Both the position numbers and the translations under genes were made by a program. The notes under the pieces were generated by a model. It was not told the DNA's origin. It was given only the letters and a program-made list of their open reading frames with translations, and made no database searches. A DNA stretch of 64,000 nucleotides from Rheinheimera sp. 4Y26 (GTDB lineage: Bacteria > Pseudomonadota > Gammaproteobacteria > Enterobacterales > Alteromonadaceae). Every line of letters starts with the position of its first letter. The first letter of the stretch is position 1. The stretch spans positions 1 to 64,000 of the forward strand of contig NZ_JAOBWS010000009.1 of NCBI RefSeq assembly GCF_025245835.1, given 5' to 3'. Of the stretch, positions 7,784 through 33,627 are shown in pieces.

Positions 7784-8793
7784 CTTGTCTGAACACCAAA
7801 AAAGTCGTCGATGACAGTGCCGAGGTTTAACCGGCAGGCTTCGTCATACACATAACGGCCAACAGCCACATCGAGCACACCTAAACCAAAAGGCGAAAAA
7901 ATAGTGGGCCTATCCGGCTGAAGCTGAAGATTGCCCGACAGCAGATCACCAAAATGCCCATGAATAAAGTCATGATGACCAAGTTGCTGATAAGCCAGAT
8001 GCAACGAAGTATTGGCTTTCAGACAATGCTGAATATCATCGGTGATGTTATTTGCCTGCGACATTAATTCAGCGGAGAAATCCCGCAGCGAAATGTTCAG
8101 AACTACAGGATTATGCTGCAATAATCCGGCATCGCTGATGTAAGGTTGTGCCGCTGTGGTTGTCGTTACTATGACGTCGGCGTTATCCATAGCTGCAGCC
8201 AGCGAGGTGACCACCTCAGCCTGTCCTTGCGCCCCTGCGTTCAGCACACTTTGTAAGGCAGTTGCATAACTGTGGTCGAGGTCATACAGCTTCAGCCGCC
8301 CCACAGTCCAGCCAAGCGCAAACAAACTGTCGGTCAGATGTTTAGCGATAAATCCACAGCCAATAATTGCAAGACAGTTGATATGCCGTGGTCCGGGTTT
8401 TAAATAACCCAGCGCTGCAACAGCACTGATCGTTGTCCTGACCGCACTAATCAGGCCAGCTTCGAGACAAGCAAAAGGAAAACCCGTGGCGCCATCGTTG
8501 AGGATCAGTGTTGCGGATGCCCGTTGCAGACCCAACCGGATATTGTCCGGGAAACTGGAAATCCATTTTATACCTGACACAGCCGGCGCCTCTGCCAGAT
8601 GAGCAGGTAATGCAATAATTCTGTTTTGCGGCTGCTCGGGGAATCTCAGGAAATAACTGTCCGGATTAATAGTTTTACCCTGGTGATGCTGCCGGTAAAG
8701 GTCGCAAATAAGCTGCTCCAGGGCAGGATAGCTCTTTGTAATGATCTGTTGAATGTCCTGTCGGCCAAGAATGCGGAAACTGTTGCTAACCAT
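7777..8793 (-). CDS. SbnB-like N-(2-amino-2-carboxyethyl)-L-glutamate dehydrogenase, copy 1 (Dap synthesis)
   Basis: A 338-residue member of the ornithine cyclodeaminase / mu-crystallin family. The dinucleotide-binding segment LAIIGCGFIAKHL and the family segment AGLISAVRTT are present, and GIKWISSFPDN near residue 70 is typical of the SbnB branch. SbnB oxidatively cleaves N-(2-amino-2-carboxyethyl)-L-glutamate to L-2,3-diaminopropionate and 2-oxoglutarate with NAD. It follows the SbnA-like gene by 44 bp and overlaps the adenylation gene by 7 bp, which ties the Dap made here to the peptide synthetase. It is clearly diverged from the second copy at 32580-33593, so the two are not a recent duplication. 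Ornithine cyclodeaminase activity is less likely given the paired SbnA. Confidence 0.9.
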   Translation of the reverse strand: MVSNSFRILGRQDIQQIITKSYPALEQLICDLYRQHHQGKTINPDSYFLRFPEQPQNRIIALPAHLAEAPAVSGIKWISSFPDNIRLGLQRASATLILNDGATGFPFACLEAGLISAVRTTISAVAALGYLKPGPRHINCLAIIGCGFIAKHLTDSLFALGWTVGRLKLYDLDHSYATALQSVLNAGAQGQAEVVTSLAAAMDNADVIVTTTTAAQPYISDAGLLQHNPVVLNISLRDFSAELMSQANNITDDIQHCLKANTSLHLAYQQLGHHDFIHGHFGDLLSGNLQLQPDRPTIFSPFGLGVLDVAVGRYVYDEACRLNLGTVIDDFFGVQTRW

Positions 8794-8837
8794 GGATGGG
8801 GTAACCCTTTTGTTTATTCAGAATCTGTGCGGAACTA

Positions 8838-9836
8838 TCACACCACAACGTGCCCGGCCGGGCTTTGCGCTGTTTGTTTTTCCTGCTGAGATTGGAGGCT
8901 TTTGGCCGTCACCATCCCGGCCCAATCATCGTTGTAGATGGTTTCCAGATAGTTTCCGCCATAATCCGCCGCCAGCATCACCACTTTACTGCCCGCAGCG
9001 ATCTTCGCCTGATACTGCTGTATGCCCGCCAGCACAGTGCCGGTTGACCCACCAATTAACCAGCCACGTTGTTTTGCCTGCTGCCGGCACATCGCCAGGG
9101 TATCAGCCTCTGTGACAGTGACCGAATCAAAGGCCATATCGGGGTCAAGCAAGGCTGGCCGTACACTGCCGCCTATGCCAGGGACATATCTGGGCTTCGC
9201 CTGCGGGCCAAACAAAATTGACCCATCCGGATCCACGGCAATAATTTTCACGTCGGGTTTGTGCTGTGCAAAGTATTGTGCACATCCCATAAAGGTTCCG
9301 CTGCTCCCCAGACCCAAAAACAGATAATCGATGTCAGGGATGTTTTTATGAATGGAACTGGCAGTTGTCTGAAAGTGGATCTGCGCATTGTGTTTGTTGG
9401 AGTATTGATCTGTCCAAATCATTGCCGGATTGTGTGCCAGTAAAGCGGAAACAATCTTCAGCCGTTCTTTCACAAAGCCGCCACTACTGAATTGTTCGAC
9501 CACAATAATGTCGGCACCATAGGCTCTCATGTGCGCAATATTTTTTGGTGAAGCGTTTGGATCGGTCACACAGGTAAACTTATAACCCCGTTCTGCACAT
9601 ACCATGGCCAGAGCCACCCCAAGATTGCCTGATGAAGATTCTACAATCTCGCCCCCGGGCATCAACCGGCCTTCAGCTTCCAGCGCGTCAATCATGGCCA
9701 CTGCAGCTTTGAGCTTCACCGAACCAGCCAGATTGAGGTTTTCCAGTTTGACATAACACTGCGACCGCGGCAGAAAGTCGTGCAGCTGCAAAAAGATTTC
9801 ATCACAATTCACTTCAGCCAGAGTATCGAAAATCAT
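8838..9836 (-). CDS. SbnA-like PLP-dependent N-(2-amino-2-carboxyethyl)-L-glutamate synthase, copy 1
   Basis: A 332-residue fold-type II PLP enzyme of the cysteine synthase family. The Schiff-base lysine lies in AGSVKLKAA (about residue 42), the substrate loop is ESSSGNLGVALA, and phosphate-binding glycines appear in GLGSSGTFMG. SbnA joins O-phospho-L-serine and L-glutamate, the first committed step to L-2,3-diaminopropionate. The loop after the lysine reads SVKLKAA where copy 2 (33628-34638) has SVKDRPA, so the two copies belong to different branches; the adjacent SbnB-like gene supports SbnA rather than cysteine synthase. This is the first gene of the NRPS operon: its ATG at 9836 has AGGTAAG upstream and the long intergenic region behind it must hold the operon promoter. 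Confidence 0.9.
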   Translation of the reverse strand: MIFDTLAEVNCDEIFLQLHDFLPRSQCYVKLENLNLAGSVKLKAAVAMIDALEAEGRLMPGGEIVESSSGNLGVALAMVCAERGYKFTCVTDPNASPKNIAHMRAYGADIIVVEQFSSGGFVKERLKIVSALLAHNPAMIWTDQYSNKHNAQIHFQTTASSIHKNIPDIDYLFLGLGSSGTFMGCAQYFAQHKPDVKIIAVDPDGSILFGPQAKPRYVPGIGGSVRPALLDPDMAFDSVTVTEADTLAMCRQQAKQRGWLIGGSTGTVLAGIQQYQAKIAAGSKVVMLAADYGGNYLETIYNDDWAGMVTAKSLQSQQEKQTAQSPAGHVVV

Positions 9837-10771: not shown

Positions 10772-13120
10772 ATGGAAATGACGCGTTTTTATCGGCTTTT
10801 GACCCAGCATCGTTGGCTTGTCCTGATTCTGGCTCTCATCCTCGCAGGCTTAGTCAGTGCCGGTGCGGGTAAGCTGTATTTTCGTGGCGATTACCGGACA
10901 TTTTTTAAGCCTGACAACCCGCAGCTTCTTACCTATGAAGCCATGCAAAAACAGTTTAATAAAAGTGATAATCTGCTGGTCGGCATAGCCCCGCGCGATG
11001 GCCAGGTATTCTCAGCAGACACCCTGGCACTGGTGCAGCAAATGACCGGAGAACTCTGGCAAACACCTTATTCGCTGCGGATAGATTCATTAACTAACTT
11101 TCAGCATTCTGCAGGACAACAGGATGATTTGGTTGTAGGTCCATTACTTGAATCCGGACAGCAGCTTACCCCTGATGTGATCAACAACATTCGCCAGATC
11201 AGCCTGCAGGAACCACTGCTGCTGCAACGACTTATTTCAAAGGATGGCACTGTCACTGCCATCAACATCAGCTTAAAGTTTCCTGACACTATCTCAGACG
11301 CCGATATCCGGCAAAGCTACCAGCACGTCAGCGCATTAATCGACAAGTACCAGCAAAAACATCCGCAAGTGGATTTTTACCTGACCGGTGTAGTGGCCCT
11401 GAATTATTCTTTTTCTATGGAGGCAGAGCAGGATTCCATCCGATTGATCCCACTGATGTTTATAGCCCTGGTGCTGATGCTGCTCTGGCTGCTCAATTCC
11501 GTTTATGCCACACTGGCAACCCTGGTCGTCATTCTGAGCTCTATTACCATGACCTTGGGTGTGGCCGGTTGGACTGGGTACTTTATCAGTGTGACCACGG
11601 TCAATGTTCCCATATTTATTATGACTTTAGCTGTGGCTGACAGCGTGCATCTTGTGTTGTCGATGCAAAGAGCGCAACGCCTGGGTATGGCAAAAGAACA
11701 AGCTGTCCAGTACGCCGTCAGCCATAATTTTGTTCCGGTAATTCTGACCAGTGTCACAACCGCCATCGGCTTCCTGACCTTCAACTTTTCCGAAGTTCCG
11801 ATTTTAAGGGATTTGGGCAACCTGACCGCATTTGGTGTGATACTTGTCTGTGCCCTGAGTCTGACCCTGTTGCCCTCTCTTTTGGCCATTTTGCCGGCAC
11901 CTGTGCAACCCGCCCGTTCAGACAAAAAAGCGATGAATCTGCTCGGCACTTTCTTGCTCAAATGGCACAAGCCCGTGTTCGCTGCCGGATTCATTGTCAC
12001 AGTAATGTCTGGTTTTTCGTTAAGTTTGAATGTGGTGAATGACGAACCCCTGAAGTATTTTTCGCCTGAAACAACCTTTCGCCAGGCCAATGACTTTATG
12101 GAACAACGGCTGTCTCCGGGTATGACCATCGACATCATGTTGGAATCGGGCGAACCGGGTGGCATTAATACCCCTGAATTTCTGCAAAGGGTACAAGAAT
12201 TAAAGGAATGGCTCAGCCTGCAACCGGAAATTGTGCATGTTGTCAGTGTGACTGACATCTACAAACGACTGAACAAAAACATGAACGGTGACCAGGCTGG
12301 CTATGATCAGTTGCCACAACAACGGGAATTAGCGGCGCAATATCTGCTTCTTTACGAAATGTCCCTACCAAAGGGACTTGATATGGGCAATCTGGTTGAC
12401 ATTGATAAAAGTGCCGTCAAATCCAGCGCCACCATCCGCAATCTGGGCAGTAAAGAGCTGATTGAACTGGAAAAACGCATCCAAAACTACCTGGAAACCA
12501 GAACAGATTACAACTACAGCCTGTCTGGTGCTGCCTTGATGTTTGCCCACATCAGTGAAAACAACATGAATTCGATGTTGTTGAGTTTACCCCTTGCAAT
12601 AGCCCTGATTTCACTGTTGCTTGCAATAGTATTCCGCAGCTGGCAAATCGGTTGTCTGAGCCTGCTGGCCAATCTTATTCCCGGCATCATCGGATTTGGC
12701 ATTTGGGGGATTTACCGTGGCGAAATTAATTTAGGTCTTTCTGTTGTTGCCAGTATGGCGCTGGGTTTAATTGTCGATGACACCATCCATTTTATCTGTA
12801 ACTACCGGCGTGCGCGTAGTCAGGGCCACAATACCAGTGAAGCGGTGCAACTGACGCTGACGAATATTGGCTTTGCCATCTGGACAACTTCAGTCGTGCT
12901 GATCATCGGTTTTGGCATTCTGCTGTTCTCATCATTCCGGCTTAATGCAGACATGGGAATGCTGACGGCACTGATTATTCTGGTAGCTTTATTCACCTGC
13001 ATGATTCTGTTTCCGGCATTTTTGCTCAGTTTCGATCGACGTACGGCACAGCAACGCTCCCTGACGCCATCGCTACAAAGCCCGGTCATCAGCAGTGCCG
13101 ATTTGCGTCAGGAACCATAA
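10772..13120 (+). CDS. MMPL/RND-family lipid or hydrophobic-compound exporter
   Basis: A protein of about 782 residues built of two repeated halves, each with one helix, a large periplasmic loop and about five further helices, the 12-helix RND layout. Visible hallmarks are FRGDYRTFFKPDNPQ in the first loop, the cluster PIFIMTLAVADSVHLVLSM in the first half and the matching MALGLIVDDTIHFICNYRRA in the second, where the paired acidic residues are the likely proton-relay site. Such pumps move lipids, hopanoids or other hydrophobic molecules; substrate unknown. An in-frame TTG at 10739 would add 11 residues; I prefer the ATG at 10772, though no strong ribosome site decides it. It is in the same direction as the metabolic genes beginning 326 bp later and is divergent from the NRPS operon. 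Confidence 0.88.
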   Translation: MEMTRFYRLLTQHRWLVLILALILAGLVSAGAGKLYFRGDYRTFFKPDNPQLLTYEAMQKQFNKSDNLLVGIAPRDGQVFSADTLALVQQMTGELWQTPYSLRIDSLTNFQHSAGQQDDLVVGPLLESGQQLTPDVINNIRQISLQEPLLLQRLISKDGTVTAINISLKFPDTISDADIRQSYQHVSALIDKYQQKHPQVDFYLTGVVALNYSFSMEAEQDSIRLIPLMFIALVLMLLWLLNSVYATLATLVVILSSITMTLGVAGWTGYFISVTTVNVPIFIMTLAVADSVHLVLSMQRAQRLGMAKEQAVQYAVSHNFVPVILTSVTTAIGFLTFNFSEVPILRDLGNLTAFGVILVCALSLTLLPSLLAILPAPVQPARSDKKAMNLLGTFLLKWHKPVFAAGFIVTVMSGFSLSLNVVNDEPLKYFSPETTFRQANDFMEQRLSPGMTIDIMLESGEPGGINTPEFLQRVQELKEWLSLQPEIVHVVSVTDIYKRLNKNMNGDQAGYDQLPQQRELAAQYLLLYEMSLPKGLDMGNLVDIDKSAVKSSATIRNLGSKELIELEKRIQNYLETRTDYNYSLSGAALMFAHISENNMNSMLLSLPLAIALISLLLAIVFRSWQIGCLSLLANLIPGIIGFGIWGIYRGEINLGLSVVASMALGLIVDDTIHFICNYRRARSQGHNTSEAVQLTLTNIGFAIWTTSVVLIIGFGILLFSSFRLNADMGMLTALIILVALFTCMILFPAFLLSFDRRTAQQRSLTPSLQSPVISSADLRQEP

Positions 13121-13446
13121 GAAAAGAGTGTCAGAAAGGCCTGCGGGTGGATCAGGCAAGGGCAGTCCGCAACGGATAACGGATGCCTGAGTCAAAGAGG
13201 GTTAGCCATACCTTCACCTGTGCACCAGCGGATGAAGTGGCGTCATCTGGTACACCACAAATGGCAGGCAAGGTCTGCACAATCACAGCATTGAATCAGC
13301 GGCTGACCAGATTGTACAGACACAATGTAAAAGTGGTGTATTGCCACAGAATGAGGCTCGCCAATGGCGTTGCGACATGAACATCCCAGTGTTCATCAAC
13401 AAAGTACTATTTCTTTCATCGGGAAAAGACAGAGATTGGAATATTT
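13121..13446 (+). other. Intergenic gap before the aldehyde dehydrogenase gene
   Basis: 326 bp with no supportable gene. It contains a short hairpin, GAACA-tcccag-TGTTC, at about 13380-13395, and GGA about ten bases before the dehydrogenase ATG serves as the ribosome site. The gap is long enough for a separate promoter, so the exporter and the genes that follow may be two transcription units. Confidence 0.4.
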
Positions 13447-15087
13447 ATGCGATCATACAACTCTTATATTGCAGGTACAGATCAACAATCAGAATCGTGG
13501 GTTTATTCAATCCGCGCTTCGGCAGTGCTTAACGATTTTGTCGCCAGCGTAAAACTGAAGCGTGGTTTAGAAAAAGGCTTGCGCGACGATGGTGCTCAAC
13601 AACCAGATGTTGTCGCCCGCTGTTCCATCAGCACTCAGGAGCAACTGGATGCGGCGCTGGTGCAAGCCAAAGCAGCAACTGCACAGTGGGCTGCATTCCC
13701 ATTAGAGAAAAGACTGGAGCTGGCTCGCCGTTTTCACCTCGAAGTGAAAAAAAGACAGCAGGAATTTATTGATGTCTTGATAGCCGAAGGTCACCCCCGC
13801 AAATTAGCCGAATGGGAAGTCGCCGGCATTCTGCAATGTTCATCATATGAATCGCTGGAACTGTGGGAACGTCAACTGCATGAAGAACGTAAAATTGGTC
13901 CACGCCGATTGCTGCTGGTCCGCAAACCTGATGGTGTTGTAGTCCTGAGTCCACCACAAAATGCCGCCGCCTCTAACTCAGTCGGAGGTCTTGCTGTGTT
14001 GGTTGCAGGTAATTGTCTGGTCGTCAAAGCACCGCGCAGCTGTGCTTATGGTGTGATGTATGTCTGGCGTGACATCGTGGCACCAATACTGGAAGATTTG
14101 GGGGCACCACCCGGAGTACTGAGCATTGTTTGTGGCAACTCAGGCAATATCCTGCAGCAGTGGCTGGATAGTCCGCTGGTCAATGACATTTTTTATTTTG
14201 GTAGCAGCGAGCGTGGTATTCAGCTTGGTATTGATGCAGTGTCACGCGGCAAAAAACCCATCCTGGAGCTTGCAGGCAAAGATGGCTGTGTCGTCTGGAA
14301 GGATGCGGACCTTGGCAAAGCCGCAGAAATGCTGACAGAGTGTTTTTTTGGTTCAGGTCAGATTTGTATGGTGCCTAAATATGCCATCCTGCACCCGGAT
14401 ATTGCCGAACCATTAATAGCGCTGTTGCTGCAGAAAGTGGCTGGCATCAGACCAGGCTACCCGGAAGACAGTAATGCTCTGCTCTCCCCGGTACTACGCA
14501 CCGACGAATATTTCCGCTACCTGCAGGAAGCAACTGAAGCTGGCGCCCGTCTGCTTACAGGTGGTCATCGGGTCGAACTGGATGGTCAGCCATCACAAAC
14601 CGGTCCTTTTATTGCACCGACGATTTTGCGCATCGACAGCCTGACAAAAGCCCGCAGCATGTCCAGCGTCTCGGAAGAAACTTTCTTCCCGCTTTTGCCT
14701 CTGGTGATTCCTGAAGTTGATCATGCTGACTTACTCGATGAAGTCATTCAGTTCATCAACGACAACCAATATGGTTTGCGCAACTCATTCTGGACCAGCA
14801 GTGAATCTGTTATCTCGCAGGTCGTCAGTAAAGTAAATAATGGTGGTTTGCTGAAAATTAACGATTCACATATCGGCTTTACGCCCTGGCTGGCAACACA
14901 CGGCGGAACCGGTCTGACCGGAGGTCCATTTGGTGAGCTGAACTACCCGCTGCTGCGCTCCTCTCATTTACAGGGCATCAGTATTGCGGAGAACGTCCAA
15001 CCCAGTCAGGCCGTTTTTGAATCAACATCATTTTCAGAAGAGAAGCACAGCAAAGTTGCGCTGGATGATTTTGCGAGGGTGATATGA
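13447..15087 (+). CDS. Aldehyde dehydrogenase superfamily protein
   Basis: A 546-residue NAD(P)-dependent aldehyde dehydrogenase fold, somewhat longer than the ~490-residue norm because of an N-terminal extension of about 60 residues. Catalytic Cys307 lies in GSGQICMVPKY and the general-base glutamate in ILELAGKDG. The oxyanion asparagine region reads SPPQNAAASNS, unlike the common PWNFP, so the substrate may be unusual. It could oxidise an aldehyde to an acid or, as in acyl-CoA reductases, run in reverse. It overlaps the next gene by 4 bp (ATGA), placing it in an operon with an acyl-CoA dehydrogenase-like protein and an aminotransferase. The first Met codon at 13447 was kept because the extension is coding-like. 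Substrate not recognised. Confidence 0.87.
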   Translation: MRSYNSYIAGTDQQSESWVYSIRASAVLNDFVASVKLKRGLEKGLRDDGAQQPDVVARCSISTQEQLDAALVQAKAATAQWAAFPLEKRLELARRFHLEVKKRQQEFIDVLIAEGHPRKLAEWEVAGILQCSSYESLELWERQLHEERKIGPRRLLLVRKPDGVVVLSPPQNAAASNSVGGLAVLVAGNCLVVKAPRSCAYGVMYVWRDIVAPILEDLGAPPGVLSIVCGNSGNILQQWLDSPLVNDIFYFGSSERGIQLGIDAVSRGKKPILELAGKDGCVVWKDADLGKAAEMLTECFFGSGQICMVPKYAILHPDIAEPLIALLLQKVAGIRPGYPEDSNALLSPVLRTDEYFRYLQEATEAGARLLTGGHRVELDGQPSQTGPFIAPTILRIDSLTKARSMSSVSEETFFPLLPLVIPEVDHADLLDEVIQFINDNQYGLRNSFWTSSESVISQVVSKVNNGGLLKINDSHIGFTPWLATHGGTGLTGGPFGELNYPLLRSSHLQGISIAENVQPSQAVFESTSFSEEKHSKVALDDFARVI

Positions 15088-16214
15088 GACTGCTGGCAAA
15101 AGAAAGGGAAACCCTGGAACAATTTTTACCCGGCCTGGATGCCAAACTGGCAGCGATACCGTTGCAGACGTTAGAGAGTCCGGGAAATCCGTCACTTTCG
15201 ATGTACAAAAGTGCCGGTGGTGCGGGTCTGCTTATTCCCAAAATTCATGGTGGTAAAGGTGCTACGGCGGTACAGGCCGCCTTATTGACCAGAGCACTGG
15301 CATCACGCTCGCCTTCACTGGCACTGGCGACCACTATGCATCAGTTTTCTGTGGCCAGCCTGATCGCATTGGCTGAATCGAGTGATGGCCCGGAATGGAT
15401 GCTACTGGATGGTATCGCCACCGAACAAAGGTTGATGTCATCTGCATTTGCCGAAGGTCATGCCGGCCAGAGTATTCTGGCCCCGACCATGAAAGCTGTC
15501 TGGGATGGCCGGAACTGGCGTGTCACAGGTAAAAAACAACCCTGCAGCCTGGCGCGTTCGATGGACCTGCTGACAACCAGCCTGCAGCTTGAACATCCTG
15601 AAAAAGGGGTATCGGTGGGTGTTGCGCTGATCCCGGCACAATCACCAGGCATTTCGGTGGAACCCTTCTGGAGCTCCTGGATTCTGGGAGGCGCTGAATC
15701 CGATGCGGTGATTCTGCAGGATGTGGAGGTTCATCCCGATTTGGTGTTTGAACTCGATGCCGAGTTACAGTCGCAGGACAACGATTTGCAGACGCTGGGT
15801 TATGTCTGGTTTGAAATGTTACTGACAGCCTGTTACCTCGGCGTTGCATCAGCGCTGGTGGAAAAAGTGATGGCAAGCGGCCGCGGCACTGTGCAGGACC
15901 GAACATCACTGTGTATTCAACTGGAAAGTTCAAACTTGCTGGTCGATGCGATCGCCCGGAATCTGGATCTCGGGGATTTTGGCAAAGATGCATTATCCCG
16001 GGCGCTGATCACAAGATTTGCCGCCGCAGATAACATTCAGGCAATAGTGGCAAAGTCTGTCGAACTGTTAGGGGGCATGGCGTTTATCCGGTCCTCTGAT
16101 GTGTCCTATCTCGCCTCAGCCACCCACGCTATCGGTTTTCATCCGCCGTCGCGTAATAGTGCGATGCAATCGCTGCTCCACTGGTATGAAGGTCAACAGT
16201 GGGTGATGGTTTAA
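15084..16214 (+). CDS. Acyl-CoA dehydrogenase-fold flavoprotein, catalytic Glu apparently missing
   Basis: A 376-residue protein with the layout of the acyl-CoA dehydrogenase family: helical N-domain, a central beta domain (about 115-220, with WDGRNWRVTGKK) and a helical C-domain (ELLGGMAFIRSSDVSYL). In medium-chain type enzymes the catalytic base sits in a Y-E-G-T-type segment near the C-terminus; here the corresponding stretch reads GFHPPSRNSAMQS with no Glu. The protein may therefore use a different base, act as a flavin oxygenase, or have lost dehydrogenase activity. Substrate is unknown; related folds desaturate carrier-bound acyl or aminoacyl groups in secondary metabolism. It overlaps the aldehyde dehydrogenase by 4 bp and the aminotransferase starts 14 bp after it. 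Confidence 0.82.
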   Translation: MRLLAKERETLEQFLPGLDAKLAAIPLQTLESPGNPSLSMYKSAGGAGLLIPKIHGGKGATAVQAALLTRALASRSPSLALATTMHQFSVASLIALAESSDGPEWMLLDGIATEQRLMSSAFAEGHAGQSILAPTMKAVWDGRNWRVTGKKQPCSLARSMDLLTTSLQLEHPEKGVSVGVALIPAQSPGISVEPFWSSWILGGAESDAVILQDVEVHPDLVFELDAELQSQDNDLQTLGYVWFEMLLTACYLGVASALVEKVMASGRGTVQDRTSLCIQLESSNLLVDAIARNLDLGDFGKDALSRALITRFAAADNIQAIVAKSVELLGGMAFIRSSDVSYLASATHAIGFHPPSRNSAMQSLLHWYEGQQWVMV

Positions 16215-16228
16215 GTCAGGGAAAAATT

Positions 16229-17518
16229 ATGTCAGCGAATCATATGAGAGACATCGAACAACTTAACAGCGCCAGAATAGCTGAATTATATCGGCGTCAT
16301 TTGTCCAAAGGACGCGCAAAAGTCTCAGATGTGTTCGGCACAGAAACTGAAGTTGCCGCACAAGGGGCCTGGGTTGAAACTCTGGATGGCCAACGTTATC
16401 TGAATGCCGGTGGTTATGGCGTGTTATTACTGGGTGCGCGTCACCCTTATGTTGAAGCTGCGGTGATTAAGCAAATTCAGACCAATCCGATTGCTTCAAG
16501 AATATTGCTGGAGCCACAAGCAGCACTGGCGGCACAAGCCTTGTGCCGGGTCGTTCCGAAAGGGCTGGCACATGTCCATTTTGCAGGTTCAGGCACAGAG
16601 GCAACTGAAGCGGCAATTAAACTGGCCCGTACTCTTGGCAAAACACGGTTAATCACAACACAAAACGGCTACCACGGTAAAACCATTGGCGCTTTGTCGG
16701 TGACCGCAAATCCGCTTTATCAGAATCCGTTCCTGCCGCTGCTGGCCAACGTCAGCACTGTCCCTTTTGGTGACAGCAACGCTCTGGAAATGGAACTGAA
16801 AACAGGCCCGCAAGCCTGCGTCATTCTCGAACCGATTCAGGGTGAAGGCGGAGTCCGCATCCCACCGGCAGGATATCTGCAACAGGTCAAGGAACTTTGT
16901 CAGCGTTATGGCGCTTTATTAGTCTTTGATGAGATTCAAAGCGGCATGGGACGAACAGGTCGCTGGTGGGCGGCCGACCGGGAAGGCGTAACACCGGACA
17001 TTATGCTGGTTGGCAAAGGCTTATCAGGTGGCATAGTGCCGGTGTCAGCGATGGTTGCCACGCCGGAGGCATTTGCTGCATTTAACAAAGATCCGTTTAT
17101 TCACACCTCAACCTTCTCAGGAGCGCCCATTGCGATGGCGGCAGCCAGAGCAGCGGTCGAAGCGATAGAGGCAGAAGATCTGGTTTTCCGGTCCGCACAA
17201 ATTGGCGAAGTGCTTTTAAGCCGCATGAAAGAAATAGTGCAAAAACACTGTGATTATCTGGTTGAAGAAGTGCGTGGAGCAGGACTGCTGATTGGTGTTG
17301 AAATGAAAGGTGCCGGTTTTGCCGGTGCGCTGCTGGCCGAAATGATTGAACGTCATGTCCTGGTCAATTATTCGCTGAATGCCGGTAAGGTACTCCGATT
17401 CACCCCTCCGGCAATTATGACTGATGAAGAAGTCAGTTTTTTACTTAATGCCTTTGATGGCGCTTGTGCAGCGCTGGCAAACCAATATACGACCGTCGAG
17501 TCTGTAGGAGCTTGTTAA
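16229..17518 (+). CDS. Class III PLP-dependent aminotransferase
   Basis: About 429 residues. The PLP lysine lies in MLVGKGLSGGIVPVSA, the cofactor-ring aspartate in LLVFDEIQSGMGRTG, and the phosphate-site loop in HFAGSGTEATEAAIKLAR. Closest in feel to putrescine/acetylornithine aminotransferases, which act on terminal amines or on aldehydes made from them. With an aldehyde dehydrogenase-fold enzyme two genes upstream, interconversion of a terminal aldehyde and a primary amine is a reasonable idea, but direction and substrate are unknown. An in-frame GTG at 16199 would overlap the preceding gene; I chose the ATG at 16229 because AGGGA precedes it at good spacing. The next gene begins one base after the stop. 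Confidence 0.9.
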   Translation: MSANHMRDIEQLNSARIAELYRRHLSKGRAKVSDVFGTETEVAAQGAWVETLDGQRYLNAGGYGVLLLGARHPYVEAAVIKQIQTNPIASRILLEPQAALAAQALCRVVPKGLAHVHFAGSGTEATEAAIKLARTLGKTRLITTQNGYHGKTIGALSVTANPLYQNPFLPLLANVSTVPFGDSNALEMELKTGPQACVILEPIQGEGGVRIPPAGYLQQVKELCQRYGALLVFDEIQSGMGRTGRWWAADREGVTPDIMLVGKGLSGGIVPVSAMVATPEAFAAFNKDPFIHTSTFSGAPIAMAAARAAVEAIEAEDLVFRSAQIGEVLLSRMKEIVQKHCDYLVEEVRGAGLLIGVEMKGAGFAGALLAEMIERHVLVNYSLNAGKVLRFTPPAIMTDEEVSFLLNAFDGACAALANQYTTVESVGAC

Positions 17519-17519
17519 A

Positions 17520-18002
17520 ATGCGGCATGTTGAAATTCACTCTTTTATTCCGGGCGCTGATGCAAACCATGTGTTTGATACCTTAGCCGACTTCCGGCAC
17601 TACGCGGATTTAGTGGATGTTGTGGTCTCAGTCGATGTTGAAAAAGATGACGAAGACAATGTGCGCAGCAGCTGGGTCGTCAAATTTCGCAACGGCTTGC
17701 TGCGCTGGACAGAACAGGACTGGTTCCGCCGTCATAAATTACGACTGGATTTTAATCAGATTGAAGGGGACTTTGATGAGTTCTTTGGCGGCTGGGTATT
17801 GGTTGCAGAGCCGGATGGTGTCAAAGCATCTCTGATTGTCGATTTTGATTTTGGCGTACCTTCGCTGGCGAATATTGTTGATCCGGTCGCTGAGCGGGTG
17901 TTAACCGATGTCACCAAAGAGATACTGCGCGGCCTGTTCGGTGAACAGGTTGTGTTTCTGGACCCGGCTGCCAGCAAGCAGCAGGAACTTACGACGGCTT
18001 AA
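17520..18002 (+). CDS. SRPBCC/START-like (polyketide cyclase or CoQ-binding type) small protein
   Basis: A 160-residue protein with the helix-grip pattern of the polyketide cyclase/COQ10 family: opening strand HVEIHSFIPGADANHVFDTLADFRHYADL cut here into its parts (strand, then helix at about 12-30), central antiparallel strands (WVVKFRNGLLRW, VKASLIVDFDF) and a long C-terminal helix (about 118-145). Members bind hydrophobic ligands or act as aromatases/cyclases; no catalytic residue set is diagnostic. It begins one base after the aminotransferase stop with AGGAG at good spacing, so it belongs to the same operon and probably handles the same intermediate. There is no signal peptide, so it is cytoplasmic. 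Function beyond ligand binding is not supported. Confidence 0.8.
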   Translation: MRHVEIHSFIPGADANHVFDTLADFRHYADLVDVVVSVDVEKDDEDNVRSSWVVKFRNGLLRWTEQDWFRRHKLRLDFNQIEGDFDEFFGGWVLVAEPDGVKASLIVDFDFGVPSLANIVDPVAERVLTDVTKEILRGLFGEQVVFLDPAASKQQELTTA

Positions 18003-18078
18003 TGCCTAAGGTGAGTGCTGCCGGCAATATCCTTTTGCCGACGGCCATGTCAATCATTTGAACTTAATGGGGTTTATG

Positions 18079-18978
18079 ATGAGTAATCAGGAAAGTCTGG
18101 CCAGTAATAAAAACAATTTTTCGCAACCTGCAAAGTCCACGGCAGCGCAGTTATATTTGCATCATGCTTCAGATGAGACCGTGCCTCAGGGCCGCCTCGC
18201 AACTGACGTAGGTTTGAAGCAATTGAGCCGCGCGTTTCGCATCATGTTTGCCAAACACAGCCTCCCGCGTAAGCTGCTGCCGATCAAACTGGATTTAACC
18301 GAGTTTAAAGCCGCTGGTTTTCAATACGATAAATCATCGACACAACAAGTTGCCGACAGGCTGAAGCCATTGCCCTTGTCCAGTGACGGCATGAAGTGGA
18401 TTTATCATTATGACGGCGAACTTTGTGTGCAGTTTTACGGCGTTCGCTACGTCAATATCAATTATGACGAGTTGGTGAGCAAAGTAGATATCAGCCGGGT
18501 GGGTGATTGTTTCAGGGATGTTATCGGCATCAATACCGAAGTATTAAAACGCGACGACCAAGGCCGCCCTGTATTGCAAATTGAACGTATTGCCGCACTG
18601 GCACAACCGGACTATTCGGCATTTTTGGGCAAAGATGAACTGGATGTCTACAAGCTGGAGTTTCAGGAATACCACAATGATCATGTGGTCAACTGGATGA
18701 GAACTGTCTGTAGCCCAAATGCATCAACAGTCGCCGACGACAGCTACTTATCTTTGTCCCGCATGCCGGATGGCACGACAAAAATTGAATTTGTCGCCCT
18801 TCAGCAGTTTCCGCTTCCCCGCATCATGGTCCTGCTTGGTTTCAGCCGCTGGAAATGGTTGCGTGAGTTCTTAACAAGACGGGCATACAAGGCTTTTTGG
18901 TATACAACATCAGACAATATTCTCGCCCGCTTCTATGGCAAAGAATTTGAAATTGGCTGTGTAAAAACCAGAAAGTAA
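18079..18978 (+). CDS. Uncharacterised protein, paralogue of the one at 20284-21042
   Basis: About 299 residues; I do not recognise the family. The region from about residue 100 on aligns by eye with the product of 20284-21042: shared landmarks in order are GM(K/R)WI.H, FYG.R..., YDE, a DxQGRP turn, ALxQP(D/N)Y(S/A)AF(L/M)GK, LDVYKLE, SPN, DDxYL, and a C-terminal KWxWL. The N-terminal ~80 residues are extra here and low in structure (rich in S, N, K, Q). No signal peptide or membrane helix. The mixed strand/helix pattern could be another lipid-binding SRPBCC-like fold, but that is speculation. Start: ATG at 18079 lies six bases after GGGG; ATG codons at 18067 and 18076 and TTG at 18058 are alternatives. 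76 bp separate it from the SRPBCC gene. Confidence 0.75.
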   Translation: MSNQESLASNKNNFSQPAKSTAAQLYLHHASDETVPQGRLATDVGLKQLSRAFRIMFAKHSLPRKLLPIKLDLTEFKAAGFQYDKSSTQQVADRLKPLPLSSDGMKWIYHYDGELCVQFYGVRYVNINYDELVSKVDISRVGDCFRDVIGINTEVLKRDDQGRPVLQIERIAALAQPDYSAFLGKDELDVYKLEFQEYHNDHVVNWMRTVCSPNASTVADDSYLSLSRMPDGTTKIEFVALQQFPLPRIMVLLGFSRWKWLREFLTRRAYKAFWYTTSDNILARFYGKEFEIGCVKTRK

Positions 18979-19019
18979 ATCAGATCACTGGAATAAAGAA
19001 GATTAGGACGTTTGGGCAC

Positions 19020-20237
19020 ATGACATTTCCGTACGAGTTTCATATTGCTTTAGATGGTAACGGCCTCAATGGCCTGGAAGGCAGGGCGGGAGTCTGTGTG
19101 TTCCGCTACGACCCTCAGACGAATGAGCACAATTTTGATATCAAATTTTATGATGGCATGGCTGGCGGGCATGCGCTCAGTATCAGTCCGGATCGGAAAA
19201 CTGGTTTTCTGGGGAGTACTGCTCAGCACCTGATGTTTTACGACACCGCCACATTGCAGGAGATCAGCAGGATCTCCACCCTGAGATTTGAGTCTACTGA
19301 TTCGTCAATCAAAGGCAGTACACACGCGGTCTGGTTGAACAACACTGAAGTGATTGTGACCATCGGAGATGGCCTCTGGAAATTTGATCTGAATAATCCG
19401 GATCAGCCAGAACGCTTGTGTGATCACGGCTTGAAAGTGCCTCATGCGCTGAAAATGACGGCGTCTGGCCGTTATCTGGTTTATGGCGGCATGGACCACC
19501 CGGTGCAGGGAGAAGGTTGTGAAGTGGGTATCTACGATATGGAAACCCGAACCGTCAGAAGATTAGTACTGCCAACCACCTGCTGGCATGTGGTCTGCGA
19601 CCCGGTAGAAGACCTGTTTTATGCCTTGTCTTTCCGGGTCCTGCCGCAGGATGGCGGCAACTATCATGAATGGGCAATTGCTCAGTTTAAAGAATATGCA
19701 TATGAGATTGATGCTGTTGCAGGTACTGTGGTCAGGCATTGGGCGACGGGGCAGGATACCCATGCTCATGTCAATTCTGATGTCTGCCTGTCGGATCAGG
19801 AGCTCATTTATTGTAACGGAGCAAGTGGCACTATCATGATGATCGACAGAAAAAATCTGTCATCTTACCGGCTGCTGGACGCTAAACCCTGTCTGATTGC
19901 CCGTCTGGGAGCAACCCGGCAAAGACTGCGGACTATCCTCGACTCAATGTCCAGAGGCTCGCTTATCACCCATGGGCATCACCACCTGAGAGCCATTCTG
20001 GTATCGCGCGGCGCATTTTTAGACTCAGTCTATGGTTGTCAGTTATCAGAAGACCAGACCATGTTGTTTACCGCAAACCGCGGTCTGAATTCGATAACTA
20101 TTTACAACTATCCGGAAAACACCGTGAAACTGACCGTCAAAATGCCTTCACTGCAAAAGTATGATAAGAGCTTGCACTGGTGGAGTGACCCAAGACTTGG
20201 TTTTCACCACAGCGTTTTGCTCAGTCCGAAAAATTAA
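19020..20237 (+). CDS. Beta-propeller-like (YncE/lactonase-type) protein of unknown function
   Basis: A 405-residue protein with repeated four-strand segments of the kind seen in seven-bladed propellers: recurring patterns such as VCVFRYDP, GHALSISPDRKTGFLGS, THAVWLNN, HALKMTASGRYLVYGG, CDPVEDLFYAL, HAHVNSDVCLSDQELIY and GCQLSEDQTMLFTANRG. Conserved His and Asp residues near the propeller axis (for example WHVVCDP and HAHVNSD) could bind a ligand or metal. No signal peptide is evident. Relatives may be lactonases, isomerases or scaffolds; none can be assigned. It lies between two paralogous unknown genes, which suggests the three products work together. The ATG at 19020 is preceded by TTGGGC; 41 bp separate it from the gene before. 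Confidence 0.72.
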   Translation: MTFPYEFHIALDGNGLNGLEGRAGVCVFRYDPQTNEHNFDIKFYDGMAGGHALSISPDRKTGFLGSTAQHLMFYDTATLQEISRISTLRFESTDSSIKGSTHAVWLNNTEVIVTIGDGLWKFDLNNPDQPERLCDHGLKVPHALKMTASGRYLVYGGMDHPVQGEGCEVGIYDMETRTVRRLVLPTTCWHVVCDPVEDLFYALSFRVLPQDGGNYHEWAIAQFKEYAYEIDAVAGTVVRHWATGQDTHAHVNSDVCLSDQELIYCNGASGTIMMIDRKNLSSYRLLDAKPCLIARLGATRQRLRTILDSMSRGSLITHGHHHLRAILVSRGAFLDSVYGCQLSEDQTMLFTANRGLNSITIYNYPENTVKLTVKMPSLQKYDKSLHWWSDPRLGFHHSVLLSPKN

Positions 20238-20283
20238 AAAGTGTGTAAATTCCGGTGTGTTGCTTACAACAAGGTCAATATAA

Positions 20284-21042
20284 ATGCGAGATATCATTCT
20301 GAACGTCGTTAAAGCGCCGCAAATCTTTTTTGCAAAACAAACGATTAAGCGCAAACGGCAACCCATGTCCATTGATATTCGTTCATATCAGAGCGAAGAC
20401 TTCGGCTATATCATTCCGACCTTACGCAACATTGAACAGCAACTATTGGCACTGCCCGCCACCAAATCCGGCATGCGTTGGATACACCATCAGGACACCG
20501 TTTATTTTTACGGTGAACGTGAATTTGATGTTCCTTATGACGAATTTATCAGGAAGGTCAGTGTTTGCCATGCCGGAGAGTTCTACCGGGATTCGGTCAG
20601 TACTGATACCCATGTTGTCCGGACAGACCAACAGGGCCGGCCATTGCACCAGGTTGTGCGTATTGTCGCATTGCCCCAGCCGAATTACGCCGCCTTTATG
20701 GGAAAGGGCAATCTCGACGTCTACAAACTTGAGCAACTGGACTACAGCGAAAATGAACAGCGTGTCTGGATGTATACAGTGCATAGTCCGAACGGATCCG
20801 CTGTCTGCGACGATGGCTACTTAGCGTTCCGGCGTGTCGGTGATGGTTCCAAAACAAGCGTCAGTTTCCTCGCGTGTCAGAACTTTCCAATTCCGCCACT
20901 GATGGCGCTGCTGCGACTGGATAAATGGACCTGGCTGAAAACAAAACTGACCGAGCATGCCTATAAAGTGTTCTGCAATACCATGTTTAATAATATCCAG
21001 GATTGTTATCTGGGCATTAAGTTTCAGGTTGGAAGAGATTAG
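20284..21042 (+). CDS. Uncharacterised protein, paralogue of the one at 18079-18978
   Basis: 252 residues, family not recognised. It shares the whole core of the 18079-18978 product (GMRWIHH, YDEFIRKVSV, TDQQGRP, ALPQPNYAAFMGKGNLDVYKLEQ in shorter blocks, DDGYL, KWTWLKTKL, then AYKVF) but has a shorter N-terminus. The conserved aromatic/aspartate pattern suggests one ancestral domain duplicated, with the propeller gene now between the copies. No signal peptide or transmembrane segment. The ATG at 20284 is preceded by AAGGTC. It ends 55 bp before the PAP2 gene in the same direction. A heterodimer with its paralogue is possible but not shown. Confidence 0.75.
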   Translation: MRDIILNVVKAPQIFFAKQTIKRKRQPMSIDIRSYQSEDFGYIIPTLRNIEQQLLALPATKSGMRWIHHQDTVYFYGEREFDVPYDEFIRKVSVCHAGEFYRDSVSTDTHVVRTDQQGRPLHQVVRIVALPQPNYAAFMGKGNLDVYKLEQLDYSENEQRVWMYTVHSPNGSAVCDDGYLAFRRVGDGSKTSVSFLACQNFPIPPLMALLRLDKWTWLKTKLTEHAYKVFCNTMFNNIQDCYLGIKFQVGRD

Positions 21043-21097
21043 TCTTTTTTCTGAACACGCTTCAGGAACATGACCCCGATCCAGGAGACACAAGCTT

Positions 21098-21631
21098 GTG
21101 AGCTACGTATATCAAGAAAATGTGCTGGCGAAAACTGTGAAGGCCATCCATCGGCTGGACCTTCATTTGCTCGCGAAAATACAGCAGTTCAAAAGCCATA
21201 GCCTCATCACCAGGTATTGCCGGTATATATCTTTCTCAGCCGATGGATATTTTTATGTATTACTTGGCATTTACCTGTTGTATAGCAGTCAATATGAATT
21301 GTTTAATCTGGTTTCTCTGGCATTTATAATAGAGAGAATCATTTACTTTACATCAAAAAATTTATTTAAAAGAAACAGGCCAGCGGACTGTATTGATGGA
21401 TTCTGCAGTAGCATTATTCCACAGGATAAATTTAGTTTCCCTTCCGGCCACACCTCAGCAGCATTTTTGATCGCCGGCACTATTGGTATCTGGTATCCAT
21501 CATTGATGGCTATTTTATATCTTTGGGCAGTCTGGGTCGGGCTTTCAAGAATCATATTAGGTGTGCATTTTCCATCTGATACTGTTGCCGGAGCCGCGCT
21601 GGGCGCTTCAGTAGCAGCTATGGTGTTATGA
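21098..21631 (+). CDS. PAP2-family membrane phosphatase
   Basis: 177 residues with several hydrophobic helices and all three motifs of the type 2 phosphatidic acid phosphatase superfamily: KNLFKRNRP (motif 1), FPSGHTSAAF (motif 2, catalytic His) and SRIILGVHFPSD (motif 3, nucleophilic His). Such enzymes remove phosphate from lipid phosphates or prenyl pyrophosphates at the membrane. It is the last gene of the run that starts with an MMPL exporter, supporting a lipid-like substrate for the pathway. The start is GTG at 21098 with AGGAG about a dozen bases upstream. Sequence after it becomes very AT-rich. Confidence 0.9.
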   Translation: MSYVYQENVLAKTVKAIHRLDLHLLAKIQQFKSHSLITRYCRYISFSADGYFYVLLGIYLLYSSQYELFNLVSLAFIIERIIYFTSKNLFKRNRPADCIDGFCSSIIPQDKFSFPSGHTSAAFLIAGTIGIWYPSLMAILYLWAVWVGLSRIILGVHFPSDTVAGAALGASVAAMVL

Positions 21632-22025: not shown

Positions 22026-22898
22026 TCACTCAGATACATTGTTAAGGCCTGACATTGTTACCGGTGCAGCAACATCTGATAAACCGCGATTCAGCCACCT
22101 GGCTGTCAGAGCATCACTGCACACCAGCGTGAGCACATCCAGTTGACTACAACTAAACCAGCAGCGAAAAGTCCGTTGTGGTGATCTGGCAGCGACCCAT
22201 TCGCTGGTTAACTGCAGTTCCAACCAGCCATCCTCTGTACTGCAGGAACCGACGGCGGCAAATTGCGAGCAAGCCTTTAGCTCAGCAGCATCAAAACCAA
22301 AATACTCACCAACAAAAGGACAAATGGCTTTAAACAGCGCTTCTTTAGCAGAAAAGAGCAGCGTTGTGGCCTGCGCTGCGGTAAAACCTGCACGCAACAG
22401 CATGTCCTGCTCGGCGGGGCTGTGTATCGATGTTGCAATGTCATGGGCCTGTTGTGGACTAAGCCAAAGCTCTGTATCAACGCCAATAAAATTATCAGCG
22501 GCCAGTGGCCTGGTCAGTAACACAGTACAGGCGTGACTCTGGTGATGTGTGATAGAGCCTGTCACTCCCAAAGGCCAGGCAGGTGCGCGCATCAGACTCA
22601 CCCCAAGCTCTGGGGGTAAGGGTTGAAATAATCCACTTTGCTGCAACAGAAGCCGGCTCAGATAACGACCAGCAAGGTACTCAAGCTGTCTTTTTGGCAC
22701 TGCAGCTGCAATGTCTGAAGGCAACTCTATCATCAGCCCGGCATAATCAGCTTGCCGGAAAGCGGCCGGCAAAAAACGACAGCGGGCCAACAACAGCTGC
22801 TGACTGTTGTCGCAGAACAATTGGATCTCGCTGAGGCAGGATACCTGAGCACCGCTTGCTGACAACTCAGACAAAAATCGAAATGGCGGGCATGGCAT
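22026..22898 (-). CDS. 4'-phosphopantetheinyl transferase (EntD/Sfp type)
   Basis: About 290 residues. The magnesium-binding motif FIGVDTELW (GVD) and the second motif LLFSAKEALFKAI (SxKEaxxK) are both present, and the N-terminal region with RRxLPxRxxE-like character matches EntD-type enzymes. It transfers the phosphopantetheine arm of CoA to carrier-protein serines, so it can activate the NRPS whose genes start 20 kb away; the staphyloferrin-type locus next to it uses NIS synthetases and needs no carrier. An in-frame TTG at 22907 is possible, but the ATG at 22898 is a more usual start. It is monocistronic, with long non-coding stretches on both sides. Confidence 0.92.
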   Translation of the reverse strand: MPCPPFRFLSELSASGAQVSCLSEIQLFCDNSQQLLLARCRFLPAAFRQADYAGLMIELPSDIAAAVPKRQLEYLAGRYLSRLLLQQSGLFQPLPPELGVSLMRAPAWPLGVTGSITHHQSHACTVLLTRPLAADNFIGVDTELWLSPQQAHDIATSIHSPAEQDMLLRAGFTAAQATTLLFSAKEALFKAICPFVGEYFGFDAAELKACSQFAAVGSCSTEDGWLELQLTSEWVAARSPQRTFRCWFSCSQLDVLTLVCSDALTARWLNRGLSDVAAPVTMSGLNNVSE

Positions 22899-23876
22899 GA
22901 CAGACAACTTTAATAAAATTTATCAATGATTTGTATTTACTGCACCAACCTTAATGTAGCTAAAAAGTAAAATCAATTTATAAACTACTGCTTTTTAACA
23001 CCAGGACAGCTCGCGACAACATCAGTTGCCAAATTTTCAGGATATGACAAAACACTGCAAAACCAAGGCATAACCGCTATTCGCCTTAAACGTTATCCGG
23101 ATATGTTTATTTGCAGGCATCGCTGAGCCAACCTTTAGATTGGATCTTGCTGTGTTTATAAAAATTGACTGCCTTTAAGGCACAGGAAAATGCAGCTTTT
23201 GACGTTTGAGAAGGGCGGATTAGCTTTCTACTCTTTACCAACAAAAAACGCAGGTAAGTATCTGAATTGATTACTTACCTGCGTTAATTTTTAAGCTTAT
23301 ACGTTATAGATTATAAAAGCTGGGGGTCAAAAGGGTAGTACAAACTTTTCCGAAGAATATAACGTTAGAAGCCTCGCCAGTACTGGGTTTCGGCCACTTT
23401 TCAGGCCTCACCCATTAAAAAGTATCACCTATCAGGGTTCAACACGGTTTTACGTTATAAATTACCTTAATGCATTGTAGCCGCACAACAAACACAACCT
23501 AAATCGATGATTTTAAACAACAACGGTATATGTTATTTTTTTGTTTAAACCAACTAATCCCTACCGTTTTATTATGTACAATAGCTTACGCTCACCAGAG
23601 CCACTCAACATAAGATTTTGAATTATATACCCTCATCTCCGGTACCATTTTACGCTCCAATCTCTGCTGAAAGGTCTGTCTAAAATAGACAAGAATTTTA
23701 TTATGTTGCACTGGTTTACTGCAAAACTTCAGCTATCAGGATGGAAGGGTATAAATCAGTTCATCCCAACACTGTGGCCACCAAATATCCTAGCAGAGAG
23801 TGTGCGCTTAATAGCCGGAGCATTTCTTTTGCCTGCTTTTAAAACACAAGCTCAATTTTCTGCATGGCAATTATTG
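22899..23876. other. Long non-coding gap between PPTase and the siderophore locus
   Basis: Nearly 1 kb with no supportable gene. It holds a strong hairpin at 23247-23285 and otherwise mixed, AT-leaning sequence. Short frames near 23703-23957 show no family features. The gap may be the scar of an insertion or a hidden regulatory or small-RNA locus; the sequence alone does not decide. PPTase promoter elements are expected near 22900-23000, and the 3' end of the sbn-type operon lies to the right. Confidence 0.45.
23247..23285. terminator. Long perfect hairpin, possible bidirectional terminator or mobile-element relic
   Basis: AACGCAGGTAAGTA (23247-23260) pairs perfectly with TACTTACCTGCGTT (23272-23285) across an 11-base loop. 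A-runs precede it and TTAATTTTT follows, as in intrinsic terminators, but no gene ends close by: the sbn-type operon stops about 590 bp to the right. It could also be a small-RNA terminator or a relic of a non-autonomous element. Confidence 0.5.
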
Positions 23877-32565: not shown

Positions 32566-32579
32566 ATCGTGCTCCTTGC

Positions 32580-33593: not shown

Positions 33594-33627
33594 AGTTATT
33601 CCTTGAAATGTTTTTTACTGCGCAGGA

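Follow-up and report, generated by a model that had tools for sequence, protein, structure and literature searches.

An azoxy-like enzyme set joined to START-like proteins and a histidine-rich propeller in Rheinheimera: a probable gene cluster for a nitrogen-containing lipid

A block of nine genes in Rheinheimera sp. 4Y26 combines enzymes characteristic of the first half of azoxy pathways with two START-like proteins, a histidine-rich beta-propeller and an exporter. Because an azoxy-like start is here followed by an uncharacterised lipid-binding and propeller end, the block probably makes an undescribed nitrogen-containing lipid. We consider it reasonably probable that these genes serve to make and export a nitrogen-oxidised fatty amine, with a front end like that of azoxy pathways and a finish provided by the START-like proteins and the propeller.

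Genomic context and distribution

The window (the whole 64,000-nucleotide stretch of DNA that was analysed) carries all nine open reading frames on one strand, as the initial annotation had proposed (Table 1). Families above the Pfam cut-off among them are MMPL, Aldedh, Aminotran_3, Polyketide_cyc and PAP2, while the frame resembling acyl-CoA dehydrogenases (ACAD) matches the corresponding Pfam families below cut-off. Intergenic distances from the aldehyde dehydrogenase (ALDH) gene to the PAP2 gene range from -16 to +55 bp, and the 326-bp gap between the MMPL and ALDH genes (13121-13446) contains neither an open reading frame of at least 100 aa nor any of the terminator-like matches listed. 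Terminator-like sites numbered 20 versus 12.8 (sd 4.1) in shuffles, promoter-like sites showed no excess (19 versus 16.2, sd 4.7), and no Rfam family was found in the window at gathering scores.

Table 1. Genes of the block and their proposed roles (positions in the window)
Product	Position	Strand	Basis and remarks
MMPL/RND-family exporter	10772..13120	+	alternative starts 10739 TTG or 10772 ATG; Pfam MMPL 139 bits
ALDH-family enzyme, proposed acyl-to-aldehyde step	13447..15087	+	Pfam Aldedh
ACAD-fold flavoprotein, proposed VlmH-type amine N-hydroxylase	15084..16214	+	VlmH-position homology; profile matches DszC, ACADs, DnmZ
Class III aminotransferase, proposed aldehyde-to-amine step	16199..17518	+	Pfam Aminotran_3 301 bits
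SRPBCC protein, proposed lipid handling	17520..18002	+	Pfam Polyketide_cyc; syntenic in azoxy-type clusters
START-like protein 1, 306 aa	18058..18978	+	41% identity to 252 aa paralogue
Beta-propeller with invariant histidines, proposed metal-dependent late enzyme	19020..20237	+	AlphaFold2, Foldseek, alignment
START-like protein 2, 252 aa	20284..21042	+	AlphaFold2 and Foldseek (StAR, ACOT11 START)
PAP2 phosphatase, accessory	21098..21631	+	Pfam PAP2 77 bits

Seven of these genes (ALDH, ACAD-fold protein, class III aminotransferase, SRPBCC protein, START-like 1, propeller and START-like 2) keep the same order in Rheinheimera, Pseudoalteromonas and Crossiella-family actinomycetes. Eleven genomes carry this seven-gene block, five of them gammaproteobacterial (three Rheinheimera and two Pseudoalteromonas) and six actinomycete. 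The order is thus conserved beyond the strain in which it was noticed, and since it recurs in two phyla it goes beyond chance. An MMPL gene is linked to it in all 11 block genomes, versus 1 of the 76 other loci (BLAST with two MMPL queries), and this linkage, together with the conserved order, backs the earlier proposal of one pathway. The PAP2 gene, by contrast, adjoins the block only in the five gammaproteobacterial copies; since no PAP2 match was found beside the six actinomycete ones, it lies outside the core of the pathway proposed initially.

According to genome searches the occurrence of the block is rare and patchy (a few marine bacteria and soil actinomycetes), and searches of plasmids found no match to the propeller or to the 252 aa protein. 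We rejected the idea that it belongs to the flanking siderophore cluster, as siderophore arm and block are distributed differently among 22 genomes of the genus: full-length matches to the left arm are confined to the window genome and G018, short ones occur in G011, G013, G014 and G020, and G012 possesses the block with none of the left arm and with different genes downstream.

Enzymes of the front end

Of the 76 other ALDH loci retained from a scan of genomes, 67 also have the order ALDH, ACAD, aminotransferase, SRPBCC, and 70 contain at least one VlmA-, VlmO- or VlmB-like azoxy gene. The front-end proteins of the block are 38-56% identical (ALDH 51-52%) to those of two actinobacterial azoxy-type clusters; the likeness to the characterised Ady and Vlm pathways is one of gene content and proposed steps. 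For both ALDH and ACAD, a branch separates the block proteins from the azoxy set (SH-aLRT 100 and 99). The block resembles the azoxy pathways (azodyrecin ady, KA57-A, elaiomycin and valanimycin vlm) in its ALDH, VlmH-like ACAD-fold protein, class III aminotransferase and SRPBCC protein, ordered as in the actinobacterial azoxy-type clusters, but has the START pair, the propeller and the MMPL exporter in place of the VlmA/VlmO/VlmB back end. Because the first four genes are common to azoxy-type clusters, the front half is not novel, and the initial annotation's statement that no described system has this set has to be restricted to the genes beyond it.

For azodyrecin, the dehydrogenase Ady2 has been proposed to yield the aldehyde, the transaminase Ady4 the amine and the VlmH-like Ady3 the hydroxylamine (PMC9379638); the dehydrogenase and transaminase pair put forward there for the alkylamine agrees with the aminated fatty chain that had been predicted from the Rheinheimera genes. 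By homology, a putative front end leading from fatty acyl through aldehyde and alkylamine to N-hydroxyalkylamine is well supported. KSIII and ACP genes occur in many actinobacterial relatives but gave no match in the block loci at E 1e-5, so the starter chain probably comes from primary metabolism, as had been surmised. A cluster of Pseudomonas putida W15Oct28 likewise combines, in the excerpt of its description, an aminotransferase, an SRPBCC-like 'PKS cyclase', a VlmH-like enzyme and an RND efflux system, along with MupV-like, FabG-like and desaturase genes (PMC4219678). That excerpt names no propeller or START pair, and the product is hypothetical there too (PMC4219678).

In the alignments, ALDH residues E274 and C307 are invariant in the 10 block sequences and present in at least 95% of 70 others, and aminotransferase K273 is invariant in 10 block sequences and present in at least 95% of 71 others. 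The ALDH keeps E274, which serves hydrolytic ALDHs as general base, so its ability to reduce an acyl thioester cannot be taken for granted. This retained base, and the lipid-handling parts of the block (PAP2, START folds, MMPL pump), would also suit an aminated or otherwise modified membrane lipid, or fatty-amine catabolism, instead of a secreted specialised metabolite; rare and patchy occurrence and synteny with antibiotic-type clusters favour specialised metabolism, however, and we regard such a role as quite unlikely.

The ACAD-fold protein had been described as having an acyl-CoA dehydrogenase fold. With 46% identity to the protein that takes the place of VlmH (amine N-hydroxylase) in a valanimycin-type cluster, it is, judged by sequence, more plausibly an N-hydroxylase of VlmH type. 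A profile search matched the monooxygenase DszC (2e-12) and DnmZ (2e-9) but also ACADs, the probable acyl-CoA dehydrogenase 3r7k ranking above DnmZ, and in a single-sequence search the best solved relative was the acyl-CoA dehydrogenase 3pfd (1.3e-8). The catalytic glutamate of acyl-CoA dehydrogenases lies in a YEGT motif; in the three proteins aligned, the C-terminal stretch has FHPPSR and no motif of this type was seen there. No flavin reductase was matched in the block loci at 1e-5, which counts against N-hydroxylation.

Were the protein a dehydrogenase, the product could be an enamine or unsaturated fatty amine made, like the tambjamine tail, without N-O chemistry. Its likeness to acyl-CoA dehydrogenases points in this direction, as does similarity to RedW (1.5e-12), PigA (2.2e-9) and PigE; moreover, two loci (L052 and L054) show ALDH, aminotransferase, SRPBCC and KSIII/ACP with no ACAD match, so amine-only variants seem to exist. 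Yet all three scores fall far short of the curated cut-offs (PigE 345 of 850 bits, PigA 36.9 of 500, RedW 47 of 650), and the comparison with tambjamine tail formation drawn in the initial annotation comes down to aminotransferase and ACAD folds and weak similarity to the PigE, PigA and RedW families of tambjamine and prodiginine tail enzymes. With the closest ACAD relatives at the VlmH position of valanimycin-type clusters and the glutamate motif not seen, an amine without N-O chemistry appears unlikely, and we keep to N-hydroxylation.

Candidates for the back end

VlmA has no match at E 1e-3 in the window genome, G018, G012 and G325, nor at 1e-10 in G642, that is, in the five gammaproteobacterial block genomes, and neither VlmO nor VlmB was matched in the block loci at E 1e-5. 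The absence of a VlmA match in the window genome led us to reject an azoxy product for the window. Among the six actinomycete block genomes, strong VlmA homologues are present in G324, G411 and G598, beyond the block loci that were analysed, so azoxy formation in trans is possible in these three; matches are weak in G539 and G612 and lacking in G359. That the block in general feeds an azoxy pathway with its back end elsewhere in the genome is nevertheless very improbable, given the five genomes without VlmA match and Crossiella S99.2, whose VlmA-bearing locus (L076) has its own ALDH, ACAD, aminotransferase and SRPBCC genes.

Glaukothalin was considered because Rheinheimera makes this blue pigment, an N-dodecylated indigoidine for which the block might supply dodecylamine. 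Both block and IndC-like cluster are present in G000 and G012, and by the formula C34H56N4O4 (PMC2775678) each half of the molecule has two nitrogens and one aliphatic chain. However, G018 has the block without an IndC match, G014 and G005 have IndC without the block, and outside Rheinheimera a strong IndC match occurs in none of the eight block hosts (one is weak, in G598). With a strong IndC-type NRPS in only 2 of the 11 block genomes (G000 and G012), glaukothalin was rejected as the general product, and a supply of dodecylamine by the Rheinheimera block is hardly to be expected.

The remaining core proteins are the START pair and the propeller, none of which scores above the cut-off of any Pfam or NCBIfam family; the 306 aa and 252 aa proteins have no Pfam match and the propeller has weak ones only. 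An AlphaFold2 model of the 252 aa protein (pLDDT 82) shows a helix-grip (START) fold, for which Foldseek returned StAR (E 3.5e-7, prob 1.00, query TM-score 0.48) and also the START domain of ACOT11. The relatedness of the two proteins flanking the propeller, noted previously, extends over 244 aa, and through this paralogue the 306 aa protein can be termed START-like.

Confidence in the propeller model is medium (pLDDT 71), and its Foldseek matches are propellers. Ten histidines are invariant in 16 of 16 sequences; in apparently six of seven blades, histidines would lie within a predicted strand or immediately ahead of one; H250 falls in a segment with pLDDT below 50. Histidine-hub propeller enzymes include nitrous oxide reductase, carotenoid oxygenases and SBP56, which the modelled propeller would resemble in carrying strand-associated histidines across its blades, and it is probably metal-dependent. 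No enzyme of this kind was among the PDB sequence matches (one match, a cilia protein, E 0.0057) or the best 50 Foldseek matches, except for the heme protein NirN. Of 17 propeller loci, 15 have a START gene close to the propeller and two show none.

In the scheme that we infer, including each reaction, chain length, metal and product, the ALDH-family enzyme would convert an acyl chain from primary metabolism into a fatty aldehyde, the class III aminotransferase would turn this into a primary alkylamine, and the VlmH-related flavoenzyme would form the N-hydroxyalkylamine. The SRPBCC protein may hold or pass on the greasy intermediate and the two START-fold proteins may hold the lipid, while the propeller would perform the late reaction that sets the pathway apart, possibly oxidising the molecule at the N-O group or the carbon next to it, before export of the product by the MMPL pump. 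Literature searches on fatty amines, N-hydroxylases and SRPBCC proteins and on Rheinheimera clusters gave no title or abstract opening matching the block. More tentatively, the START pair and a histidine-hub propeller might constitute a new system for metal-dependent oxidation of lipid-bound N-hydroxyalkylamines, whose exported products would be nitrogen-oxide lipids of a new class, with the propeller recruited from an actinobacterial system of propeller, DUF362-START and SDR and joined to the azoxy front end.

Conclusions

These results suggest that the fatty-amine and N-hydroxylation genes at the start of azoxy antibiotic pathways form a module that can be reused with different back ends, and that this module has crossed between Actinomycetota and marine Gammaproteobacteria. 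For the START pair and the histidine-rich propeller, two families below Pfam and NCBIfam cut-offs, they provide a concrete and testable substrate class.

Gene content and genomic surroundings

The nine open reading frames claimed by the initial annotation all lie on the forward strand where it had placed them, and Pfam confirmed the MMPL exporter, the aldehyde dehydrogenase (ALDH), the class III aminotransferase (AT), the SRPBCC protein and the PAP2 phosphatase. The acyl-CoA dehydrogenase matches of the ACAD-fold flavoprotein (ACAD) fall below the Pfam cut-off, and the proteins of 306 and 252 aa (START1 and START2) gave no Pfam or NCBIfam match at the limits used. From ALDH to PAP2, neighbouring genes overlap or are at most 55 bp apart, and the 326-bp gap 5' of ALDH contains no listed ORF of at least 100 aa and no terminator-like match.

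The block, i.e. the genes from ALDH to START2, is flanked by siderophore genes on the opposite strand (see table), among them an HpaI-like aldolase that we take to be SbnG-like. The left siderophore arm has a full-length match only in the window genome and G018, another Rheinheimera, among 22 genomes of the genus. In these two genomes the block lies between siderophore genes, and in a third Rheinheimera (G012) at another site; the block is therefore a separate cassette.

Coordinates of the block, its flanks and gene sets observed elsewhere
Feature	Position	Strand	Content
Block	window ~13447-21042	+	ALDH-ACAD-AT-SRPBCC-START1-propeller-START2
Staphyloferrin-B-type siderophore genes, left	window 1411-9836	opposite	SbnA and SbnB (above their cut-offs), adenylation-domain protein, weakly PvdQ-like protein, cyclic-peptide-type ABC exporter
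Staphyloferrin-B-type siderophore genes, right	window 22026-34638	opposite	PPTase-like, decarboxylase, HpaI-like aldolase, SbnF-like and IucA/IucC synthetases, MFS transporter
Indigoidine-type set, window genome	L142 8954-13919 (G000:C11, ~786954-791919)		IndC-like NRPS (1294 aa), IndA-like gene, OYE, UPRTase, HlyD
Nostoc sp. C052 plasmid set	L118 1481-15728		nitric oxide synthase oxygenase, two SDRs, desaturase, aminotransferase, SRPBCC, GNAT, ACAD, glycosyltransferase, formyltransferase, DevC/DevA exporter genes

Conservation and distribution

The search for the gene order in other genomes that the initial annotation had called for showed that it recurs outside the strain. A Rheinheimera MAG has the block at 97-100% protein identity, which assigns the window genome to this genus. 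A named genome collection was scanned with an ALDH alignment and the best 80 of 196 confirmed relatives were kept; three of these 80 possess the complete order, namely Rheinheimera UBA8519 (L008), Crossiella sp. S99.2 (L010) and Pseudoalteromonas sp. OOF1S-7 (L011), and Rheinheimera GS13 (L009) has the beginning of it, interrupted by a contig end. Block proteins from outside Rheinheimera are 56-74% identical. In whole-genome searches the propeller was present in 3 of 60 relatives of the window genome (4.08 Mb), all within the genus (22 genomes), and in 1 of 295 genomes of its order and 1 of 398 of its phylum, each time the window genome itself. It occurs in 2 of 108 genomes of the genus of the Pseudoalteromonas strain, and in 8 of 297 and 4 of 396 genomes of the family and phylum of Crossiella, respectively. 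Altogether 11 genomes bear the block (divided over two contigs in G012). The cluster is real, conserved and rare.

A front end shared with azoxy pathways

The other 76 of the best 80 relatives (L012-L087), all Actinomycetota judged by their titles, served as comparison loci; contig ends truncate some of them and so reduce the counts given here. Among these 76, drawn from the best 80 of 196, the order ALDH, ACAD, AT, SRPBCC is found in 67, with gaps below 400 bp in 63 of them; the remaining nine are without one to three of these genes. At least one of the azoxy back-end proteins VlmA, VlmO and VlmB is matched in 70 (tblastn, 1e-5), and none at this threshold in L052, L054, L059, L067, L081 and L085. 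START1, propeller and START2 were found in none of the 76, and an MMPL match in one. In two annotated Streptomyces plasmid copies, ALDH-ACAD-AT-SRPBCC is followed by genes for a hypothetical protein, a VlmB-like protein, KSIII and ACP.

For azodyrecin, the accessible text of PMC9379638 proposes that the dehydrogenase Ady2 yields the aldehyde and the transaminase Ady4 the amine, that the VlmH/VlmR-like Ady3/Ady10 perform N-hydroxylation, and that the VlmA homologue Ady7 follows, Ady6 and Ady8 being homologous to VlmO and VlmB. We liken the block ALDH, AT and ACAD to Ady2, Ady4 and Ady3 by these published roles, independently of Ady sequences. On sequence grounds, the front end of the block is that of azoxy pathways. 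The assertion that no described system has this gene set is thus not supported for the front half, which is of a known kind; the back half is unassigned. A gene set similar to AT, SRPBCC and ACAD is described for P. putida W15Oct28 in the accessible part of PMC4219678. Aminotransferase, SRPBCC and ACAD genes also occur together on the Nostoc plasmid, whose set possibly makes an N-O or N-N lipid.

The window ACAD is 46% identical to a protein from Streptomyces sp. NBC_00212 whose gene adjoins a VlmA-like (DUF2156) gene within a valanimycin-type cluster; no second ACAD-type gene is annotated in the surrounding 19 kb. A profile built from three members of the family ranked the monooxygenase DszC first (2e-12) and also matched the nitrososynthase DnmZ (2e-9), with acyl-CoA dehydrogenases such as 3r7k (8e-10) and 3pfd (4.6e-7) interspersed; 3pfd ranks first in a single-sequence search. 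Because both kinds of enzyme match, the fold by itself is not decisive, and synteny with the VlmH position bears most weight.

At E 1e-3, VlmA had no match in the three Rheinheimera genomes (window, G018, G012) or in the Pseudoalteromonas G325, nor, at 1e-10, in the second Pseudoalteromonas, G642. Among the actinomycete block genomes, strong matches exist in Crossiella (G324), G411 and G598, all beyond the fetched block loci (in Crossiella in the separate locus L076); matches are weak in G539 and G612, and G359 has none. On one Crossiella contig (NZ_JALMDK010000004.1), the block and L076, a divergent locus containing VlmA/VlmO, are ~120 kb apart.

START proteins, propeller and exporter

The model of the 252 aa protein has a START fold (pLDDT 82; StAR match, E 3.5e-7), and its matches include the ACOT11 START domain with myristate. 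The 306 aa protein is its paralogue (41% identity), in agreement with the earlier description of two related unknowns around a propeller. The propeller model is of medium confidence (pLDDT 71, pTM 0.78). All 16 aligned homologues share H51, H70, H102, H136, H142, H190, H240, H250, H396 and H397; the alignment omits the propeller of G018, whose identity to the window protein is 100%. H51, H102, H142, H190, H250 and H396/H397 lie inside, or at most three residues before, a predicted strand, H250 within a low-confidence stretch; from the model, we read these as probable inner strands of six of the seven blades. Searches of the PDB yielded no convincing sequence relative for either the START or the propeller family. 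Of 17 propeller loci, 15 have a START domain nearby, a count that includes the DUF362-START fusions of four divergent loci; none was seen in L112 and L113. A divergent propeller, a DUF362-START fusion and an SDR form a separate conserved set in the actinomycete loci L111, L168, L169 and L170.

An MMPL gene is linked to the block in 11 of 11 genomes. In Rheinheimera it precedes the block on the same strand, in the two Pseudoalteromonas it is divergent and accompanied by PAP2 and a LolA-like gene, and in the six actinomycete copies it lies between propeller and START2. The window and Crossiella MMPL proteins do not match at E 1e-3; the block is therefore served by different MMPL pumps.

Proposed pathway and alternative products

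Most likely, the block leads from an acyl chain to an exported product. ALDH would form the aldehyde and AT the primary alkylamine, which ACAD may convert to an N-hydroxyalkylamine; SRPBCC and the two START proteins would handle intermediates, the propeller would catalyse a late, probably metal-dependent step, and MMPL would export the product. Against this scheme count the retained E274 of ALDH, the dehydrogenase similarities of ACAD and the finding of no flavin reductase in the block. A plain alkylamine is a possible product instead: L052 and L054 combine ALDH, AT and SRPBCC with KSIII/ACP and have no ACAD match, perhaps representing an alkylamine pathway without N-hydroxylation.

Tests of ALTERNATIVES covered glaukothalin and tambjamine/prodiginine tail enzymes. 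The latter miss their curated cut-offs, so that the suggested likeness to tambjamine tail formation is not upheld. An IndC-like NRPS occurs in the window genome, where an IndA-like gene adjoins it, and in G012, G014 and G005; it has no match in G018, and the eight non-Rheinheimera hosts of the block lack a strong one (one weak match, in G598). We therefore rejected glaukothalin (PMC2775678) as the general product of the block. The indigoidine-type set of the window genome is a candidate source of this blue pigment; among the papers listed, none dealt with glaukothalin genes.

Evolutionary history

Trees were built by a quick method from 29 of 80 ALDH and 35 of 84 ACAD rows, 14 non-block rows in each being random and the others chosen. 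Block copies and the azoxy set fall on opposite sides of one branch (SH-aLRT 100 for ALDH, 99 for ACAD). This separation fits one origin of the block and transfer, in either direction, between Actinomycetota and Gammaproteobacteria.
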